NCBI GenBank assembly: GCA_002430125.1 | Contig: DJBQ01000137.1 | Span: 4,251 to 20,183, forward strand | Direction of reading: 5' to 3' | Length of the DNA stretch: 15,933 bases | Source: Rhodobacterales bacterium UBA5972 | Lineage (GTDB): Bacteria; Pseudomonadota; Alphaproteobacteria; Rhodobacterales; Rhodobacteraceae | Shown here: piece by piece, positions 3,195 through 10,596 of the stretch | Layout: each line of letters begins with the position of its first letter | How positions within the stretch are numbered: position 1 is the first letter of the stretch | Translations under genes and position numbers: made by a program | The notes under the pieces: model-generated | What the model was told of the DNA's origin: nothing | What the model saw: only the letters and a program-made list of their open reading frames with translations | Database searches by the model: none

Positions 3195-4709
3195 CTAGTC
3201 AGGTGCCGCCGCCACCAATTTGCGCACTTCCGAAGCCAAGACCTTGCCCATTGTGTTGCGCGGCAGCGCCGGAAGAAATACCACGTCTTTGGGGTGCTTG
3301 AACCGCGCAATTTTGTCGGTGAATGCAGCCAGAATCGTGGCGCGGTCTGGTCCGTTTTTGGTGATGACAACCGCCGCGACCGGCACTTCGCCCCATTTGG
3401 GATGTGCGCGCCCGACGACAGCGCATTCCCTGATGCCGGGGATCCGGCCCAACACGCGTTCAAGTTCGGCAGGATAGATGTTTTCGCCGCCCGAGATGAT
3501 GACGTGTTTCACCCGGTCGGCAAACCAGTAAAGGCCGTTTTCGTCCTGAACCGCGACATCGCCTGTGCGAAACCAACCGTCCACCAACGCGGCCTCTGTT
3601 GCCTCAGGATTGTTCCAGTAATGGCTGAAATTGTTTGGGCCTTTGACCCAGATTTCGCCGGGCTCACCCAATGGCGCTTCGGTGGCATCTGCAAGCATCA
3701 GTTTCACTTGCGTATGCGCCCCGCAGCGACCGATTGAACCTTGGGTTGACCGGGCTTCATGGGCTTTTTGATAGGTGGCGATGGGGCCGGTTTCGGTGGC
3801 GCCATAAACCTGCACCATCGGGATACCGCGTTTATGATTGGCCTCGATAATCTCGACCGGAACATCAGTAGAACCGGTGTTGAACAGACGCAGGGTTGGC
3901 AGTTTCAAGTCCCCCCAATCCGGGTGAAACATCAGCGCTTTCATCACGGTTGGCACGCAAACGGTTGTGGTAATGCCTTGATATTCCAGCGCCCGGATCG
4001 TTTCATCGGCATCAAAAGCCGGATGCAGGGTCATCGTGCCGCCGATGAAAAAGCAGGGCATCATCTGGATGTTGATCCCGCCGACGTGAAACAGCGGCAG
4101 CATGTTCAGAATGTGATCTGCCGGGGTAAAATCATGCGCGTGAACGCTGATGATCGCGTTCCACAGGATCGATTCTTGTGTCAGCACCGCCCCCTTAGGG
4201 CGGCCCGTTGTGCCAGAGGTATAGACGATGAACATCGGGTCAGACAGGTCTGCATCGGTCGCCACTGCCAAGCCCTGAGATTTATCGATCAAGGCGTCCA
4301 GTCGGTCACTGGTGTTAACGGCAAGTGTCGCCAACCCGACCAGCGCCGCTGGCACCTGATCCAGAAAATTGTCATCGTGAAACAGGACTTTGGCACCGCT
4401 GTCGCCAAGGATATAGTTCAGTTCGGCCGGAACCAGCCGCCAATTCAGTGGCACAATGATCAGCCCCAAACGGGCGCAGGCAAAGAACAGCGCCACTTCG
4501 GTATCGCAGTTCTTGCCATAATAGGCCACACGATCACCGGGCTTCAGACCAAGCGAGTGTTGGAGGGCCACGGCCACTTGTTCGACCCAATCTGAAAAGG
4601 CACGATAGGTCCAGGTATGGCCTTCAAAATGAACCGCCGGATGATTGGGCTGGTGGGTGGCATGCGCCTTTAGCCAGCTGTCGATGCTCTGGGTTTTCGC
4701 GCCCATCAT
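3195..4709 (-). CDS. Acyl-CoA ligase (class I adenylate-forming)
   Basis: Activates a carboxylic acid through an acyl-adenylate and transfers it to CoA. Its 504 residues carry all the family motifs: phosphate-binding loop YTSGTTGRPKG at 163-173, aromatic/ATE motif YGATETG at 302-308, GWFRTGD at 378-384 with the ribose-binding Asp, hinge region DRVKHVIISGGENIYP at 398-413, and catalytic lysine K489 in PRNTMGKVL. It is the last gene of the four-gene minus-strand operon. Its ATG overlaps the stop of the ACAD-fold gene (4706-4709), implying translational coupling; a second ATG one codon later is also possible. Overall it resembles the medium/long-chain fatty-acyl, malonyl or aryl-CoA ligase group. 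The substrate is unassigned. From context it may activate a carboxylic intermediate made by the upstream dioxygenase and hydrolase. Confidence 0.9.
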   Translation of the reverse strand: MMGAKTQSIDSWLKAHATHQPNHPAVHFEGHTWTYRAFSDWVEQVAVALQHSLGLKPGDRVAYYGKNCDTEVALFFACARLGLIIVPLNWRLVPAELNYILGDSGAKVLFHDDNFLDQVPAALVGLATLAVNTSDRLDALIDKSQGLAVATDADLSDPMFIVYTSGTTGRPKGAVLTQESILWNAIISVHAHDFTPADHILNMLPLFHVGGINIQMMPCFFIGGTMTLHPAFDADETIRALEYQGITTTVCVPTVMKALMFHPDWGDLKLPTLRLFNTGSTDVPVEIIEANHKRGIPMVQVYGATETGPIATYQKAHEARSTQGSIGRCGAHTQVKLMLADATEAPLGEPGEIWVKGPNNFSHYWNNPEATEAALVDGWFRTGDVAVQDENGLYWFADRVKHVIISGGENIYPAELERVLGRIPGIRECAVVGRAHPKWGEVPVAAVVITKNGPDRATILAAFTDKIARFKHPKDVVFLPALPRNTMGKVLASEVRKLVAAAPD

Positions 4710-5956
4710 TCGTCGCGCTCGCCGCTTTCGTAAAGCGTGCCCTTGCCCAACATATCAAGGCATAATTCGCTGGTCCAAGGCAGCATTAGCGCGCCACAGC
4801 GGCTGTCGCGATAGATGCGCTCCAGATGCAAGCTGCGCAACATTGACTGCCCGCCACAAGTGCGGATTGCCAGTTGCGCGATCTCGTTGGAATTCTCCAT
4901 CACAGTATATTGCGCCGCCCATGCGCGCAGCAGGCTGTCGCGGGTCGGGTTGGGGCCAGCCTCGGTAATTGCCTGAAACCACAGGGATTTGGTCTGCTCC
5001 AGCATGATCCGCATTTGCGCCACCGCGATTTGTTTGGTTGGGTACATCCGGCGCTTGACTGGCGGTGTACCGGGCATTTCACCGCGCAGATATTTAACGG
5101 TGAAATCATAGGCGGCCTGCGCCAGCCCCATATAGGCAGGCGTCAGGGTCATGAACATGTGCGGCCAGCGTTTGGCGGCTTGAAAGTAAATGCCAGATGG
5201 CATCAGCTTGGCGTCACTTGGCACAAACACGTCTTTGAAAATCAGGTTGCGCGAAACCGTGCCGCGCATGCCCAGCGGATCCCAGTCGCCCTCGACAGTC
5301 ACGCCGTCGCTGTTGGCCGGAACGGCGATATACATGGTGTTGGCGCGGTCGGGGTCTTCGTCTTTCGACGAAATCTCGGTGCACAGCGCGCCGTAATAAT
5401 TCGCGTGACCAGACAGCGAGGCAAATATTTTCTTGCCGTTGATCAGCCAGCCGCCATCAACCTTCAGGGCCGTCGTGCCAAATGCCTTGGACCCGGCAGC
5501 AGCCGCCCCGCCTTCGGAAAACGGCTGTGCGTAAATAGCGCCATCGTCCAAAATGCGACGATAGTGGTGTTCGCGGGTTTTGTTATGTTCAGCGCGCATC
5601 GCGTCAGGCATATCAAACGTATCCAGCAGAAAGCCTGACCACAGGCAGGAGCAGACATGCATGTTGAAGGTCAGCGCGGTCGACCCGCAATACCGGCCGA
5701 TTTCGGCTGCCGTCAGCATATAGGTTTTGAAATCAGCGCCATGGCCGCCATATTCTTTTGGAATGGCGATACCCATCATGCCGCTGTCAAAGAAATCCTT
5801 GTAGTTTTCTGTCGGAAAGCTGGCTTCGCGGTCATATTTTGCAGCCCGTGGCGCGAACTTTTCCTGCCCCAGTTTGCGCGCCAAAGAGGACAGTTCGGCT
5901 TGCTGTTCCGTCAGGCCCCATGTGGCGGGATCAAAAATCGGTGCATCTTGGGTCAT
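4706..5956 (-). CDS. Acyl-CoA-dehydrogenase-fold flavoprotein lacking the catalytic Glu; dehydrogenase or flavin monooxygenase
   Basis: 416 residues with the three-part ACAD architecture: N-terminal helices (about 15-140), a middle beta domain (about 141-250, including INGKKIFAS at 172-180 and GMRGTVSRNLIFKDVFVP at 229-246) and a C-terminal helical domain. It departs from true dehydrogenases at key sites. The usual TEPxAGSD is replaced by SEGGAAAAGSK (147-157). At the C-terminal active site, where MCAD-type enzymes have YEGTSEIQ, this protein reads LPWTSELC (392-399), so the catalytic base is Pro393. The alternative IVD-type position aligns by eye with Met, not Glu. Loss of the base is typical of ACAD-fold flavin monooxygenases (the HpaH/HsaA/DszC type), which need a separate flavin reductase, and one is encoded in the divergent unit. 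Four-nt overlaps join it to both operon neighbours. A dehydrogenase with a relocated base remains possible. Confidence 0.85.
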   Translation of the reverse strand: MTQDAPIFDPATWGLTEQQAELSSLARKLGQEKFAPRAAKYDREASFPTENYKDFFDSGMMGIAIPKEYGGHGADFKTYMLTAAEIGRYCGSTALTFNMHVCSCLWSGFLLDTFDMPDAMRAEHNKTREHHYRRILDDGAIYAQPFSEGGAAAAGSKAFGTTALKVDGGWLINGKKIFASLSGHANYYGALCTEISSKDEDPDRANTMYIAVPANSDGVTVEGDWDPLGMRGTVSRNLIFKDVFVPSDAKLMPSGIYFQAAKRWPHMFMTLTPAYMGLAQAAYDFTVKYLRGEMPGTPPVKRRMYPTKQIAVAQMRIMLEQTKSLWFQAITEAGPNPTRDSLLRAWAAQYTVMENSNEIAQLAIRTCGGQSMLRSLHLERIYRDSRCGALMLPWTSELCLDMLGKGTLYESGERDE

Positions 5957-6735
5957 GAGTGTCTCCGGTAAAATTCGGTCAGGATGGCGTTGGTTTGTGC
6001 ACCTGCTTCAAGGTTGATCAGATGACCCGCACCGAGGATATTGTGATACTCGGAGCGCGGGATTTTTTCAGCCATGCGAGCCATTGTTTTGGCGGGGGCA
6101 TTCTGGTCGTGTTCGCCTGAGATCAGGCAAACTGGAATGGTCAGTCCCGCAATATCATCGCGACGGTTAAAGGTCGTCAAACAGCGGATAATGTCGCGGT
6201 AAGTGGCCTCGGGAACGGCGGCCATCGTGGCTTGGGCCGCCTTGATTGTGGCAGGTGACGCAATCGGGCCGGTGATTTCAGCGACAAAGGTCTCGGCCAG
6301 TTCCGCAAGGGATTTTCCGGCATCAAGCGGTTTCAAGCGTGCCGCGACGAACTGGTCACGGAAGCTGTCGTCGCGGCCACCAAAAGCCGGGGTGGTGCCA
6401 ATCAGGGCCAGCGAGGCGACGTATTCGGGGTATGTGCAGGCCATTTCCAACGCCAGCATACCGCCGATGGATTGGCCACACAGATGCGCTTTGGCAAGAC
6501 CCAGCGCATCCAAAAAACCCTTTAGCGCATCAGCCAGCGCCGGGAATGTCGGTGGGGTCAACGCGGTTGAGCCACCATAACCCGGCATGTTCCAAGCGAT
6601 CACCCGATTGCTGTCAGACAGCCCGTCAAGCTGCGGCTGAAAACTGGTGGTGTCGCCGCCGATCCCGTGCAGACAGATGATCGGCACGCCGCCCGCGCCG
6701 CTGTCGTCATAGGTTATTCCTGCCGCTAGTTTCAC
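5953..6735 (-). CDS. Alpha/beta hydrolase, candidate ring-cleavage-product hydrolase/deformylase
   Basis: 260-residue soluble alpha/beta-hydrolase-fold enzyme. Visible are the oxyanion strand motif HGIGG (23-27), nucleophile elbow GQSIGG with Ser89 (87-92), acid Asp210 in SGEHDQNAP and His238 in GAGHLINLE, so the triad is complete. The start is GTG at 6733-6735, overlapping the NicX-like stop as GTGA, and its own stop overlaps the next ATG as ATGA. In the nicotinate pathway the gene following the 2,5-dihydroxypyridine dioxygenase step encodes NicD, an alpha/beta hydrolase that deformylates N-formylmaleamate. Position and size fit that role here. By eye, however, the sequence is a generic member of the fold and could equally be an esterase or a 3-oxoadipate-enol-lactonase-like hydrolase. 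Confidence 0.85.
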   Translation of the reverse strand: MKLAAGITYDDSGAGGVPIICLHGIGGDTTSFQPQLDGLSDSNRVIAWNMPGYGGSTALTPPTFPALADALKGFLDALGLAKAHLCGQSIGGMLALEMACTYPEYVASLALIGTTPAFGGRDDSFRDQFVAARLKPLDAGKSLAELAETFVAEITGPIASPATIKAAQATMAAVPEATYRDIIRCLTTFNRRDDIAGLTIPVCLISGEHDQNAPAKTMARMAEKIPRSEYHNILGAGHLINLEAGAQTNAILTEFYRRHS

Positions 6736-7769
6736 GCGGTTAAAACCCCGTCTTTGACAACACAGGTTTCATCGACCGTGATAGTGGTGCCCATCATCGG
6801 CAAATCGAAATGGCCTTGGGTGAAGCGACCCGCGAATTCATTAGCCCCGGTTGAGTAAAGGAAATTTCCGGCAACGGCGCGCAGTTCGGTCGCGTTCATA
6901 TCGCGCTGGTCATACATGGTTAACGCCTCGTACCGCGCGGCTTTGTGCAGGCCCCAACCGACATGGCTGGTGGCATAAGCCTCGCGATCACCGAATGCTT
7001 CAAGGTAATTGCGCATCAAACGCGCATCAGTACCCCGGCCTTCGATCTTGGTGACGTAATCGCCTTCCAGCGTGAAAATCACCTCGTCGTCAAAGTATTT
7101 CTTGAAGGTCAGGTTCATATCGCCGGGTTGAAACACCAACCGCCCGTTGACGCTGCCCGAGCGTGGAAACGATACGATGATGCCGCCGGGCCAATGCGCC
7201 AGCGTACCGGGTTTATCCGTCCAGCCCCAGATGCCAACTGTGTTGTTGCCGGTCATGTCCACAGTCAAATCCGTGCCTGCATCGCTGGTTACTGTCATCG
7301 CAGTGGATTTGCGACACAACCGCGCTGCGGCCAGCGTGCGGTCCTTCAAATCCTCGTCCGGCATGGCACGTTCCAGCATATCGGGATGCTCGTTGCTGAT
7401 GTTCATAATCCGCGCACCACCCTTCAGGATGGTCTGGGTTTGCGGTGAATGCATCAAACCTTCCAGGGTCAGATCGACGATGAAATCAACCGATGCCAGC
7501 GCCGCAACCGCCTTTTCCTGACCATTCAACGCGACGCAAGTGCCGGTCGAGCGCAGGATTGCAGGCGAGGTATTGCGCGGTGTTGGAACCTTCAGGTGGT
7601 AAAATGGCACGCCGATGCGCGACAGCGCCAGTTCCGCCAGATGCACGTTCAGATCACGGCTTTGGGTTTCCGAAAGGATGATCGCGGTTTGGCTGGCATC
7701 CACCTTGCACGCCCGAAACGTGGTTTCAAAAGCGTCGATCCACTTGGCTTCGATCCGGTCATTCAACAT
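6732..7769 (-). CDS. NicX-like (2,5-dihydroxypyridine 5,6-dioxygenase family) Fe(II) dioxygenase
   Basis: 345-residue member of the family named after NicX, the enzyme that opens the ring of 2,5-dihydroxypyridine to N-formylmaleamate; homologs are often mislabelled M29 leucyl aminopeptidase. Similarity to my recollection of Pseudomonas putida NicX runs through the protein: LMHSPQTQTILKGGARI (105-121), HWPGG (192-196), the GDMNLTFKKYF region (217-226), SHVGWGLH (268-275) and GHFDLP (319-324). The iron ligands reported for NicX (His265, His318, Asp320) correspond to His269, His320 and Asp322, so all three are kept. His107 and His192 match other conserved histidines. It is the first gene of the operon, with an AGGGGGG-type ribosome site just before the ATG. 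It probably cleaves a hydroxylated pyridine or related heteroaromatic; the exact substrate is unproven. Confidence 0.85.
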   Translation of the reverse strand: MLNDRIEAKWIDAFETTFRACKVDASQTAIILSETQSRDLNVHLAELALSRIGVPFYHLKVPTPRNTSPAILRSTGTCVALNGQEKAVAALASVDFIVDLTLEGLMHSPQTQTILKGGARIMNISNEHPDMLERAMPDEDLKDRTLAAARLCRKSTAMTVTSDAGTDLTVDMTGNNTVGIWGWTDKPGTLAHWPGGIIVSFPRSGSVNGRLVFQPGDMNLTFKKYFDDEVIFTLEGDYVTKIEGRGTDARLMRNYLEAFGDREAYATSHVGWGLHKAARYEALTMYDQRDMNATELRAVAGNFLYSTGANEFAGRFTQGHFDLPMMGTTITVDETCVVKDGVLTA

Positions 7770-7820
7770 CAGAACCCCCCTGTCAGAATCGCCCGCATGA
7801 CAGAATGTCGCGGTTTCTAC

Positions 7821-7849
7821 TTGTTAAATAGATTACTTTGGAATATATT
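7821..7849 (+). promoter_or_regulatory. Sigma70-like promoter for the reductase-MarR unit
   Basis: TTGTTA (7821-7826) and TATATT (7844-7849) are separated by exactly 17 nt. Transcription would start near 7856, leaving a short leader before the GTG at 7883. The -10 box lies at the centre of the palindrome below, so a bound repressor would block it. A matching promoter for the minus-strand operon must lie in the same 113-nt gap but is less clear. Confidence 0.55.
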
Positions 7850-7866
7850 CAAAGTAATATCTTAAC
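7823..7866. promoter_or_regulatory. Long inverted repeat, probable MarR operator
   Basis: Perfect 9-bp arms ATTACTTTG (7832-7840) and CAAAGTAAT (7850-7858) flank the self-complementary GAATATATTC (7841-7850). The symmetry extends outward with GTTAA (7823-7827) and TTAAC (7862-7866), at slightly unequal spacing. It is strikingly AT-rich against a GC-rich background and sits between divergent transcription units, one of which encodes a MarR-type protein. MarR proteins typically bind AT-rich palindromes of about this kind and repress both directions. Confidence 0.65.
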
Positions 7867-7870
7867 ATCG

Positions 7871-7876
7871 AAAGGA
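7871..7876 (+). promoter_or_regulatory. Ribosome binding site fixing a GTG start
   Basis: AAAGGA, six nucleotides before GTG at 7883. It argues against the upstream in-frame TTG at 7838, which lies inside the operator palindrome, upstream of the predicted transcription start. Confidence 0.6.
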
Positions 7877-7882
7877 AACGGC

Positions 7883-8365
7883 GTGGACGAAAAATCAATG
7901 GCCTTACGCCGAGCTTTCGGAAAATTCGCTACCGGTGTAGCGGTAGCCACATCGACAGACCCAAGCGGGGCGCCAATCGGGTTGACGATTAACTCGTTCA
8001 GCTCGGTCTCGCTGGACCCGCCATTGGTGCTGTGGTCGCTGGTGACAAAGTCGCCCAATCTGGATGTGTTCCGCAATTCCAGCCATTTCGCGATCAACAT
8101 GCTGGCAAGCAACCAGCGCGAGATCAGCGACACGTTCGCGCGCCCTGCTGAAGACCGTTTCGCCAGTGTGGACTGGCATCGGGGTATCGCGAATTTGCCG
8201 GTGATCAAAGGCACAATCGCCACGTTTGAATGCCGCCGAACCATGACAATCGAGGCCGGTGATCACGTTGTTTTCTTCGGCGCGGTTGAAGAATGCGAGC
8301 AATGTGACCTGGAACCCCTGCTGTTCTTTTCCGGCAAATACGGCACGGCGCATGTCCCCGGCTGA
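7883..8365 (+). CDS. Flavin reductase (HpaC-like, flavin-reductase-like domain)
   Basis: 160-residue NAD(P)H:flavin oxidoreductase that supplies reduced FMN or FAD to a separate oxygenase. It shows the family signature GLTINSFSSVSLDPP (33-47), the NML turn (72-74) and GDHVVFFGAVE (126-136), whose GDH motif is shared by HpaC, ActVB and similar reductases. The GTG start is chosen because of its AAAGGA site; ATG at 7898 is the alternative. No classical flavin monooxygenase gene is adjacent. The best candidate partner is the ACAD-fold protein in the divergent operon. The 3' end overlaps the MarR gene by 14 nt in another frame, so the two are co-transcribed and probably translationally coupled. 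Expression is probably controlled by the palindrome just upstream. Confidence 0.88.
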   Translation: MDEKSMALRRAFGKFATGVAVATSTDPSGAPIGLTINSFSSVSLDPPLVLWSLVTKSPNLDVFRNSSHFAINMLASNQREISDTFARPAEDRFASVDWHRGIANLPVIKGTIATFECRRTMTIEAGDHVVFFGAVEECEQCDLEPLLFFSGKYGTAHVPG

Positions 8366-8798
8366 CAGCGAAAACTTTACCGACGAATATCTGCTGTATC
8401 TGCTGGCCCATGCCAGTGCAGCGGCCAGCGACGCGTTTCACGCTGAAATGCAAGCCGAAGGTATTTCGGTGACGACGTGGAGGATACTCGGGTCGCTATA
8501 CCCAAATGTCCGGCTGAATGTGGGGGCATTGGCGCGCAAAAGCCTGATGAAGCAGCCAACCCTGACACGCACGCTTGACCGGCTGTGCAAACAAGGGATC
8601 GTCGCGCGCCATCACAGCGACGACGACCGCCGTGGCGTATTGGTCGACTTGACCGATAAGGGCCGCGACATGGCCCGCGACAAGATCGAAAAAGCACGGG
8701 CGCATGAGACGGCGATTTTGCAGGATTATTCCGACGCTGATATTGCTGATCTGAAACAGCGACTGCGGACTTTGTTGGCGCGCGCCCGGCAAAACTAA
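8352..8798 (+). CDS. MarR-family transcriptional regulator
   Basis: 148-residue dimeric winged-helix regulator, with helical dimerisation segments at both ends. The DNA-binding part spans about 40-105: TTWRILGSL (41-49), LNVGALARKSLMKQPTLTRTLDRL (55-78) with the recognition helix at about 66-81, and the wing with DDDRRG at 90-95. The ATG at 8352 gives the expected family length; a longer reading from 8259 would lie wholly inside the reductase gene and adds unrelated residues. It overlaps the reductase by 14 nt and has no strong ribosome site of its own. MarR proteins commonly control divergent aromatic-catabolism operons and respond to a pathway substrate or CoA thioester, and NicR of the nicotinate pathway belongs to this family. 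It probably binds the palindrome at 7823-7866 and controls both units, including itself. Confidence 0.9.
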   Translation: MSPADSENFTDEYLLYLLAHASAAASDAFHAEMQAEGISVTTWRILGSLYPNVRLNVGALARKSLMKQPTLTRTLDRLCKQGIVARHHSDDDRRGVLVDLTDKGRDMARDKIEKARAHETAILQDYSDADIADLKQRLRTLLARARQN

Positions 8799-8825: not shown

Positions 8826-10046
8826 TCAGCCCAAGGCCACCGTCATCCCGTTGATCCCGCGCACCCCTGTCAGCCCGCGCAGGGTTGGCACTGGCCCGAT
8901 CAACCGCGCGTTTGGGGCAAGCTCGGCCAGAACCGACAGGGTTTCCTCTATCTCGACCCGCGCCAAAGCCTCGCCCAGACAGCGATGTCCGCCGCCGCCA
9001 AAAGCCGGATGCAGGGCCGGGTGATCCTTACGGGTGATGTTAAAACGGTCCGGATCAGCATAGATCGCCGGATCACGCAACGCGGCAATCATCGACATGA
9101 ACAAAACCGATCCGGTGGGGATGCGAACCCCCGCCAGCATAAAATCCTGCGCGGCAATCCGCGACAGGCTGCCAACGACGGGGTCGTATCGCAAACCTTC
9201 AGCCGTCACATCGGCCTTCAGGGCATCAGGGTCGGCTTTGAACATTTCCCATTGGTCTTGATGGTCCAGCAACCTCGCAAAGGTCGTGGCGATGGAACTA
9301 CGGGTGGTGTCGGACCCCGCCAAAATAAGGCCAACGATTTGCACCCTCACTTCGGTCGGATCAAGCGCGCTGTCTGCCACCCGCGCCAGATAGGCGGAAA
9401 GGAAATCCTGTTGCGGCGATTTCGCCCGGTCGGCCAACACACCAGCAACATAGGTGTTAAGGCGTGCCAAATCTGCCTCGGCCTCAAGCAAAATCCCTCG
9501 TGAACGGCTGGCAAGCACGCGGATCGAGGAATAGACAAGCGTGGTGAAATGCGGGATATCGCGCTCGGGCACGCCCAGAATTCCGGCAATTATCCGTGCC
9601 GGCATCGGGCCAGCGACATCAGCCAGAAAATCAACCTCGCCGCCACCGAGCAAGGGTTTGATGATCGCCGTTGCTGCCGCCCGAATATCCGCGCGCATCG
9701 CTTTGACAATCGGAAACGCAAAAGCGCGGGCCAGAGGCGCACGGCGGTTGCGATGCACCGTTCCGTTGGAAAACAGCATGACATTGGCAAAGAAATCGCG
9801 GATCGCCCCGGCACCGATCCCCAGCAGATCAATGCCTTCGGTTTCAAGCTGCCGCGTCAGGTCATCGGACAACATATCCAGCATATGTTGATGGGAAAAT
9901 GTGTGAACGCCGAAATAACCGTCGCGCACCAATGGGCCAAGGCGCATCACCTGTTTCATATAGGCGTGATCGTCGATCGCCTTGTCGCGCGGCGGATAAA
10001 CCGGCAGGTCTTTGACTTGAAGTGTCTGGCTGTCAGTTTTGGTCAT
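8826..10046 (-). CDS. Cytochrome P450
   Basis: 406-residue soluble bacterial class I-type P450 monooxygenase that needs external ferredoxin and reductase, neither of which is in the window. The heme loop FGGGGHRCLG is at 349-358 with ligand Cys356, the I-helix oxygen-activation motif AGSDTT at 243-248, the ExxR pair at Glu283/Arg286, and a C-helix HRNRRAPLARAF at 98-109. There is no membrane anchor. The start is ATG with GAGG at 10053-10056. It lies 58 nt downstream of the ATC-hydrolase-family gene on the same strand, so the two may be co-transcribed. Its stop is 27 nt from the convergent MarR stop. The family and substrate are not recognised; hydroxylation of a small terpenoid, fatty acid or aromatic is possible. 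Confidence 0.95.
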   Translation of the reverse strand: MTKTDSQTLQVKDLPVYPPRDKAIDDHAYMKQVMRLGPLVRDGYFGVHTFSHQHMLDMLSDDLTRQLETEGIDLLGIGAGAIRDFFANVMLFSNGTVHRNRRAPLARAFAFPIVKAMRADIRAAATAIIKPLLGGGEVDFLADVAGPMPARIIAGILGVPERDIPHFTTLVYSSIRVLASRSRGILLEAEADLARLNTYVAGVLADRAKSPQQDFLSAYLARVADSALDPTEVRVQIVGLILAGSDTTRSSIATTFARLLDHQDQWEMFKADPDALKADVTAEGLRYDPVVGSLSRIAAQDFMLAGVRIPTGSVLFMSMIAALRDPAIYADPDRFNITRKDHPALHPAFGGGGHRCLGEALARVEIEETLSVLAELAPNARLIGPVPTLRGLTGVRGINGMTVALG

Positions 10047-10104
10047 TGGATCCCTCTGGCGGAACTATATGCCCAACCGTCGCGATATCCAGCCTGACCG
10101 CACG

Positions 10105-10596
10105 TCAGTCTTGACCGGAAAAGTCATAGCGGAAGGTGCAGCAGGCTGCCCCGCCCATGATCGTCTGGTCGCGGGTCAGTTTGGCCTTTGGGTTAAAGCC
10201 TTCGACCATCGCATAGTCCCGGTTGCACGACAGAACCGCGCCCAGATCAGCAACGCCCAGCGCACGGTACATTTCCGCGTATCGGCAGCGATTGACATTG
10301 AAATCAAGCTTGGTGTCCGAATTCGCCAGCACCTCGATTTCCAGCGCTCCGCCTTGGGTCCAGAAGGCCAGAGTTTCCAGAAATGCGTCGGTGCCATTGC
10401 CGTATTCCGCCGCCAGCGACGCGCCTTGGTCGCGCGCAAGGCCGATGATGACATCGCGCACCGTGTTGACGACCGCCTCCCGGCCAAATTCCTTGCCCAA
10501 GGCGTCGATCACCGGCGCCAAAATCCGCGCCTCGGTTTCGCGTCGGGTTAGAACGCCGATGGTCTGGGTTATGGTGTCTGGCAGGTCTGTGGTCAT
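10105..10596 (-). CDS. L-2-amino-thiazoline-4-carboxylic acid hydrolase family protein
   Basis: 163-residue protein that I recognise as the ATC-hydrolase family (PF14196). Its signature sits in the second half: [16 protein letters not shown] (99-114), LSCNRD (122-127) and [17 protein letters not shown] (141-157), with Cys104, Cys124, Cys152 and Cys153. The founding activity opens the ring of 2-amino-thiazoline-4-carboxylate on the route to cysteine. Most homologs are uncharacterised, so a hydrolase role on another heterocycle or a binding role is possible. The start is ATG with GGAGG at 10602-10606, five nucleotides upstream. It precedes the P450 gene and follows the pseudouridine synthase gene by 39 nt, all on the same strand. 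Confidence 0.8.

Follow-up and report, generated by a model that had tools for sequence, protein, structure and literature searches.

A NicX-like dioxygenase operon from Rhodobacteraceae as a possible further type of locus for aerobic indolic acid degradation

Which ring does a dioxygenase of the NicX type open when it is encoded together with an acyl-CoA dehydrogenase (ACAD)-fold flavoprotein and a CoA ligase? The question is raised by a stretch of 15,933 nucleotides from Rhodobacterales bacterium UBA5972 (Rhodobacteraceae; GenBank assembly GCA_002430125.1, contig DJBQ01000137.1, positions 4,251 to 20,183 of the forward strand), here called the window, which carries a coupled operon for a NicX-like protein, an alpha/beta hydrolase, the ACAD-fold protein and the ligase. 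Our preferred answer, which we hold with about even confidence, is that the locus serves the inducible, aerobic breakdown of a carboxylic acid of the indole type, with indole-3-acetate (IAA) or one of its close analogues as the likeliest substrate; the pyrrole ring would be opened with O2 and the product would feed anthranilate/2-aminobenzoyl-CoA metabolism. A putative IAA-binding MarR regulator of the IadR type, a probable ACAD-fold monooxygenase, a NicX-like enzyme lacking the substrate-binding Glu177, the hydrolase, the ligase and an anthranilate funnel together fit the catabolism of such an acid.

The four-gene module and its NicX-like enzyme

The four open reading frames (ORFs) of the operon lie on the minus strand (3195-7769) and overlap consecutively by GTGA, ATGA and ATGA. 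The divergent flavin reductase and MarR genes, absent from the original prediction, are counted in the same unit, which consists of the following parts.

6732..7769, minus strand: NicX-family Fe(II) dioxygenase-like protein, 345 aa (ORF, sequence and fold comparison)
5953..6735, minus strand: alpha/beta hydrolase, 260 aa, GTG start (ORF, Pfam, NCBIfam)
4706..5956, minus strand: ACAD-fold flavoprotein, 416 aa (ORF, Pfam, NCBIfam)
3195..4709, minus strand: AMP-forming acyl-CoA ligase, 504 aa (ORF, Pfam, NCBIfam)
7832..7858, between the two arms: perfect 9-bp inverted repeat with a 9-nt spacer, candidate MarR operator
7883..8365, plus strand: flavin reductase, GTG start behind AAAGGA as seen by eye (ORF, Pfam, NCBIfam)
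8352..8798, plus strand: MarR regulator, by sequence of the IadR (IAA-binding) kind, overlapping the flavin reductase gene

That these four genes form a coupled operon, as the original prediction had it, was borne out by the ORF coordinates, the overlaps and their recurrent association in 111 loci. These were all longer than 6 kb and contained the NicX-like gene at 40% identity; at fixed identity thresholds, and with some loci ending within the cluster, the ACAD-fold gene was found in 106, the hydrolase in 104 and the CoA ligase in 95 of them. The association of the four genes is not due to chance. A flavin reductase reached the threshold in 73 loci (about 7 kb away in Bradyrhizobium), a MarR gene of the window kind occurred in 20 and a TRAP transporter gene in 7. 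Most of the related loci belong to Bradyrhizobium and are hence not independent, as also in a scan with one genome per species (179 relatives, best 80 loci kept), and the gene order differs in this genus, where the NicX-like gene is separate from the hydrolase-ACAD-ligase row. In whole-genome searches with the ACAD-fold protein, 9 of 394 genomes of the family had a match at E 1e-150; at 1e-110, there were 23 among 385 genomes of the class and 18 among 398 of the phylum, the own genome being included each time. The NicX-like gene was not found in 5 of the 26 stretches around ACAD-fold matches (L149, L150, L155, L161 and L170), one of which is a 7.5-kb contig.

A second group of loci (L082, L083, L088 and L167-L169) combines a glutamine-synthetase-family gene with NicX-like, ACAD-fold and hydrolase genes; a CoA ligase of the module type reached the fixed threshold in none of them. 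L082, L167 and L168 also contain a gentisate/5-aminosalicylate-type dioxygenase gene, and in the same three loci we observed an FAH-family hydrolase, a nitrilase-family protein, an APC permease and an extra N-terminal domain in the hydrolase. In L104, a three-subunit molybdenum hydroxylase-like operon (4340-7922) directly follows the module CoA ligase.

The NicX-like protein had no match in the Pfam or NCBIfam copies used, but grouped by sequence, and by fold comparison with PDB structures, with NicX, the 2,5-dihydroxypyridine 5,6-dioxygenase of Pseudomonas putida KT2440 (PDB 7cn3). PDB matches of the model that ranked below M29 aminopeptidases and crocagin proteins covered its N-terminal part only, and the literature search retrieved no publication naming PDB 5GJ7. 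All four iron ligands of NicX (His265, Ser302, His318 and Asp320) are present, as originally predicted, together with Cys76, His105, His189 and Arg293. Three positions are changed: Glu177 to Ile (Ile180), Glu308 to Phe and Leu104 to Met. In NicX, Glu177 forms hydrogen bonds with the ring nitrogen and oxygen of the substrate and His189 with the oxygen, and the double mutant E177A/H189A is inactive (PMC7910607; here and below, papers are cited from excerpts).

Position 177 was Val in 98 and Ile in 22 of the 120 best homologues listed, all with an intact iron site. Among 58 module sequences it was Val or Ile in 52, Gly in 4 and Asn in 2, and all six sequences of the second group have Thr. In a midpoint-rooted tree, module and second group formed one clade of 64 (support 0.92; 0.53 for the 58 module sequences alone), which was separate from the reference enzymes and in which neither Glu nor Gln occurs at this position. 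The references, from nic-, ndp- or hpo-type loci, have Glu177 in 12 of 13 cases and Gln in one (Rhodococcus, hpo-type locus). Two further NicX-family genes, in L206 and L210, have Gln at 177 and adjoin an HpaB-type hydroxylase, with an additional pyridoxine 4-oxidase annotation in L206; they may represent a further substrate group.

These sequence comparisons support a NicX-family protein with an intact iron site and suggest that it is not a plain 2,5-dihydroxypyridine enzyme. Ring opening of this compound, which had been predicted for the operon, is left unsupported because the Glu for ring nitrogen and oxygen is replaced throughout the clade; nor is any nic gene linked. At 40% identity, nicC, nicD, nicE and nicF were found in none of the 111 loci. 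In the own genome (77% complete), NicC had no counterpart at E 1e-10 and NicE a single weak one (57.6 bits). Other module-bearing genomes, by contrast, do encode NicC-like (8 of 9) and NicE-like (7 of 9, the own counted) proteins at the same E-value, among them a NicE-like protein of 61% identity in genome G271. The predicted NicD-like deformylation fares no better: the hydrolase falls outside the NicD group, its match to Pantoea NicD is local and confined to 70 residues (35.7%, E 5e-7), and it is 20.7% identical to Azospirillum NicD. Of the original interpretation, the NicX family, the iron site and, given that maleamate amidase and maleate isomerase are missing beside the operon, a different substrate or lower pathway thus stand, and the dihydroxypyridine substrate and the NicD-like step do not.

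The ACAD-fold protein has Pro393 at what we take to be the catalytic Glu position of acyl-CoA dehydrogenases, as judged by eye from an alignment to 1jqi and for the position of the medium- and short-chain enzymes (MCAD/SCAD) only. This Pro is invariant across 31 ACAD-fold sequences. Because a flavin reductase accompanies the gene and Pro replaces the usual catalytic Glu, the protein appears more likely to be a monooxygenase than a dehydrogenase; the two features of group D two-component enzymes, an ACAD fold and a flavin reductase encoded nearby, were both found. A lone ACAD-fold homologue (57%) lies among mobile elements on a conjugative plasmid in a Dolichospermum metagenome assembly (L087, 9989-11236).

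The regulator and the link to anthranilate metabolism

A pointer to the substrate comes from the MarR protein. Its closest PDB sequences are 3CDH from Ruegeria pomeroyi (6.5e-28), 7KKI, 7KFO and the mutant 7KRH; E-values to the IAA sensors 3CDH, 7KFO and 7KKI range from 6.5e-28 to 1e-24, and the next match, 3e6m, follows at 2e-10. In 7KFO, the Variovorax sensor MarR_73 (IadR) is bound to IAA and contacts its carboxylate through Ser28, His32 and Arg46 and the ring through Tyr15, Ala18, Trp45, Arg46 and Val65 (PMC9613470). 3CDH is reported to be the tightest IAA binder of those tested (0.237 μM). The seven contact positions are occupied in the window protein by Tyr, Tyr, Ser, His, Trp, Arg and Lys, which makes it equal to 3CDH at six of them, with a difference at the last. 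The window MarR has the Ser/His/Arg triad for the IAA carboxylate, as do 17 of 20 further module MarRs (a set without L001, the window's own copy, and L114, which repeats L151); none of four MarRs from related records outside the module does. The triad is not kept in L147, L165 and L166, the latter two of which also share an Asn at NicX position 177 and lack a ligase at threshold; L146, likewise without a ligase at threshold, keeps the triad. By sequence and contact residues, the regulator would thus be of the IadR-type, IAA-binding kind. In the Bradyrhizobium locus L016, flavin reductase and MarR are fused in one ORF of 325 residues (7818-8795), in which the Ser/His/Arg contacts are retained.

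An inverted repeat as good as the one between the two arms arose in 17 of 3000 shuffles of the intergenic stretch. Among eight relatives examined it was near-identical in L002 and L004 and looser but of the same length in L006 and L007; L101-L103 have only other imperfect repeats, and L099 has none at the threshold used.

The second line of evidence is the neighbourhood of the module in other lineages. Salicylyl-CoA 5-hydroxylase-family genes (NF006101, bifunctional, which we take to be 2-aminobenzoyl-CoA monooxygenase/reductase) or kynurenine-pathway genes adjoin it in Bradyrhizobium, L154/L156, L169 and L164. The genes of L154 and L169 score above the NCBIfam cut-off for the former family (1316 and 1269 bits; cut-off 1078), and matches of at least 40% identity occur in 50 of the 111 loci, mostly Bradyrhizobium and cut by the locus end; L151 matches the reductase half only. 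Tryptophan 2,3-dioxygenase, arylformamidase and kynureninase genes are linked in 3 of the 111 loci, all above cut-off in L036 and L164 and, in L028, with the tryptophan 2,3-dioxygenase by similarity only. In L147, a divergent tryptophan-2,3-dioxygenase-like protein of 371 residues (15497-16612; 172.7 bits, cut-off 390.7) is encoded next to TRAP, hydratase and thiolase genes.

The own genome contains an NF006101 gene above cut-off (C143:12191-14467, 1271 bits) on a different contig from the window, and 0 of 14 control genomes does. It belongs to a row (L177, 4527-14467) of monooxygenase, short-chain dehydrogenase, hydratase, ACAD and second CoA ligase genes, followed by kynureninase-like and tryptophan-dioxygenase-like genes, these two by similarity only, and a Rid-like gene. 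In L156, too, a second CoA ligase adjoins the 2-aminobenzoyl-CoA genes. Among 36 genomes with an ACAD-fold match (of 47, with 11 same-genus repeats dropped), 27 had the monooxygenase above cut-off, compared to 9 of 36 without (p 4.5e-5), in sets that differ in taxonomy. Outside the family the proportions were 22 of 26 and 3 of 7 (p 0.04). Co-occurrence gives the anthranilate link modest support, and physical linkage is the stronger argument.

Proposed route and alternative substrates

Starting from the observed fold, iron ligands, loss of Glu177, gene order, MarR similarity and pocket and the anthranilate linkage of the relatives, we infer the substrate, the order and chemistry of the steps and the function of the operator as follows. 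Supplied by the divergent flavin reductase, the ACAD-fold oxygenase would hydroxylate the indole ring in the manner of IacA, at C2 in the case of IAA; IacA is reported to make 2-hydroxy-IAA (PMC7225977). The NicX-like Fe(II) enzyme would then split the C2-C3 bond of the hydroxyindole with O2, and the alpha/beta hydrolase would take off the N-acyl group (formyl or carbamoyl). The CoA ligase would activate the resulting 2-aminobenzoyl-alkanoate (2-aminobenzoylacetate from IAA), and thiolysis would yield 2-aminobenzoyl-CoA for the monooxygenase/reductase pathway encoded elsewhere in the genome. MarR would repress both arms via the shared palindrome until the acid binds. A figure legend recalls a 1961 report of IAA conversion via 2-formaminobenzoylacetate to anthranilate (PMC11630574), and the TRAP transporter genes in 7 of the 111 loci suit an acid.

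Several points weigh against an indolic acid. The ACAD fold alone suits dehydrogenases equally or better. Two of the seven MarR contact positions differ from MarR_73 and one from 3CDH, and most Bradyrhizobium loci show no MarR near the module. Since Bradyrhizobium already has the iad route from IAA to anthranilate (PMC9613470), the module may act on another indolic acid in this genus. By the module, one query found no thiolase in the 111 loci except in L147, and the 2-aminobenzoyl-CoA operon of the own genome has its second CoA ligase. Within the family, the monooxygenase was present in 5 of 10 genomes with and 6 of 29 without the ACAD-fold gene, which is not significant (p 0.11); because only half of these ten hosts encode it, at least 4 would need another fate for the product.

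The nearest rival substrate, indole itself, is in our view unlikely. It would be oxidised to indoxyl by the ACAD-type oxygenase and cleaved between C2 and C3 by the NicX-like enzyme to N-formylanthranilate, from which the hydrolase, as a formamidase, and the ligase would lead to anthraniloyl-CoA. Every gene thus has a role, the N-CH=C(OH) pattern matches that of 2,5-dihydroxypyridine and keeps the reaction nearest to known NicX chemistry, and the anthranilate genes linked to the module suit it. A review describes ACAD-like indole-oxidising enzymes and a 2-aminobenzoyl-CoA cluster vital for anthranilate use in an indole degrader (PMC6221969), and N-formylanthranilate features in a Providencia study (PMC9871250). 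However, the MarR pocket retains residues for a carboxylate, which indole lacks, the TRAP genes point to an acid, and a second ligase adjoins the 2-aminobenzoyl-CoA genes both in the own genome and in L156. The own genome's ligase likewise weakens a candidate role of the window ligase as a plain anthranilate-CoA ligase.

Equally unlikely is another tryptophan-derived or benzo-fused substrate, such as kynurenate or an anthranilate derivative in a lower pathway, with the IadR-like MarR sensing an unrelated aromatic acid. The kynurenine genes of L036, L028 and L164 share loci with the NicX-like gene, and L082, L167 and L168 of the glutamine-synthetase type have the gentisate/5-aminosalicylate-type dioxygenase instead. 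Yet the former are linked in just three loci and account for neither the NicX-like nor the ACAD-like enzyme, and the near-identity of the MarR pocket with that of 3CDH speaks for IAA.

A pyridine pathway via 2,5-dihydroxypyridine or a substituted analogue, with CoA and flavin steps in place of maleamate amidase and maleate isomerase, is less probable still: the NicX fold, the four iron ligands, His105 and His189, the molybdenum hydroxylase operon adjoining the ligase in one locus (L104) and the Gln at 177 of the Rhodococcus hpo-type enzyme are in its favour, but all 64 clade sequences have Val, Ile, Gly, Asn or Thr at position 177, the nic genes are missing from the 111 loci at 40% identity, the hydrolase is not of the NicD group, and the IAA-type MarR and the anthranilate linkage would go unexplained. 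We also considered N-methylated pyridines (homarine, trigonelline), in which an N-substituent would account for the loss of Glu177, but rejected them, as the literature search gave no link and the anthranilate linkage does not fit.

Next to the MarR gene, the minus strand carries genes for a cytochrome P450 and, after it, an ATC-hydrolase-family protein (8826-10596). Neither had a homologue at 35% identity in any of the 111 loci, and both were therefore rejected as module parts; the module does adjoin other P450s, about 25% identical, in L103 and L148. A search of the window with Rfam at gathering thresholds gave no match. Two records considered as possible iac loci were discarded: H78 lies on a Ti plasmid and carries LLM oxidoreductase and peroxidase-related genes, and H100 has no annotation.

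Relation to known pathways

The locus is probably a new variant of aerobic indolic acid catabolism and not a member of nic, iac or iad. More tentatively, at somewhat less than even confidence, we propose that it represents a third kind of locus for the aerobic degradation of auxin (indolic acids), spread among Proteobacteria of both sea and soil. A dioxygenase of the NicX family, repurposed, would open the indole ring once an ACAD-fold monooxygenase has acted, and the product would reach 2-aminobenzoyl-CoA by way of a CoA ligase. Our literature search of titles, abstracts and passages, which covered few subscription papers and no preprints, retrieved no NicX-type indole or auxin pathway. If correct, indole-type rings would be cleaved by some members of a family that carries the annotation peptidase M29 or 2,5-dihydroxypyridine dioxygenase, and a non-haem, NicX-type reaction would join the known ways of indole ring opening; the known auxin-destroying bacteria would come to include marine Rhodobacteraceae, and a second auxin route would be added in Bradyrhizobium.

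With NicX, the window protein shares fold and iron ligands; it differs in lacking Glu177, Glu308 and Leu104 and in having no nic neighbours. With respect to p-hydroxyphenylacetate 3-hydroxylase (C1/C2), the flavin reductase and the MarR protein, which are fused in L016, each match parts of the C1 model below cut-off, whereas the score of the ACAD-fold oxygenase with the C2 model is as low as 45.6 bits (cut-off 650). Several lineages have genes of the 2-aminobenzoyl-CoA pathway, namely those for the monooxygenase/reductase and the hydratase, linked to the module, and the own genome has them elsewhere; the pathway has its own CoA ligase there and in L156, and the NicX-like, hydrolase and ACAD-fold genes are not among its members.

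The known aerobic auxin loci are defined by iacCD- or iadDE-type genes (PMC9613470), and no Rieske protein of either type was found among the ten window proteins scanned with Pfam. The iac pathway begins with an ACAD-fold flavin monooxygenase and a flavin reductase, IacA and IacG (PMC7225977), which by analogy is the first step proposed here; it continues with IacE and Rieske genes to catechol (PMC9613470), whereas the window locus has the NicX-like enzyme and the CoA ligase. The iad system of Variovorax paradoxus CL14 and Bradyrhizobium shares the regulator, as the window MarR is of the same kind as IadR/MarR_73 and R. pomeroyi 3CDH and keeps the carboxylate contacts. It ends in anthranilate, the end that we also propose for the window locus, but is defined, unlike the latter, by the Rieske oxygenase iadDE (PMC9613470).

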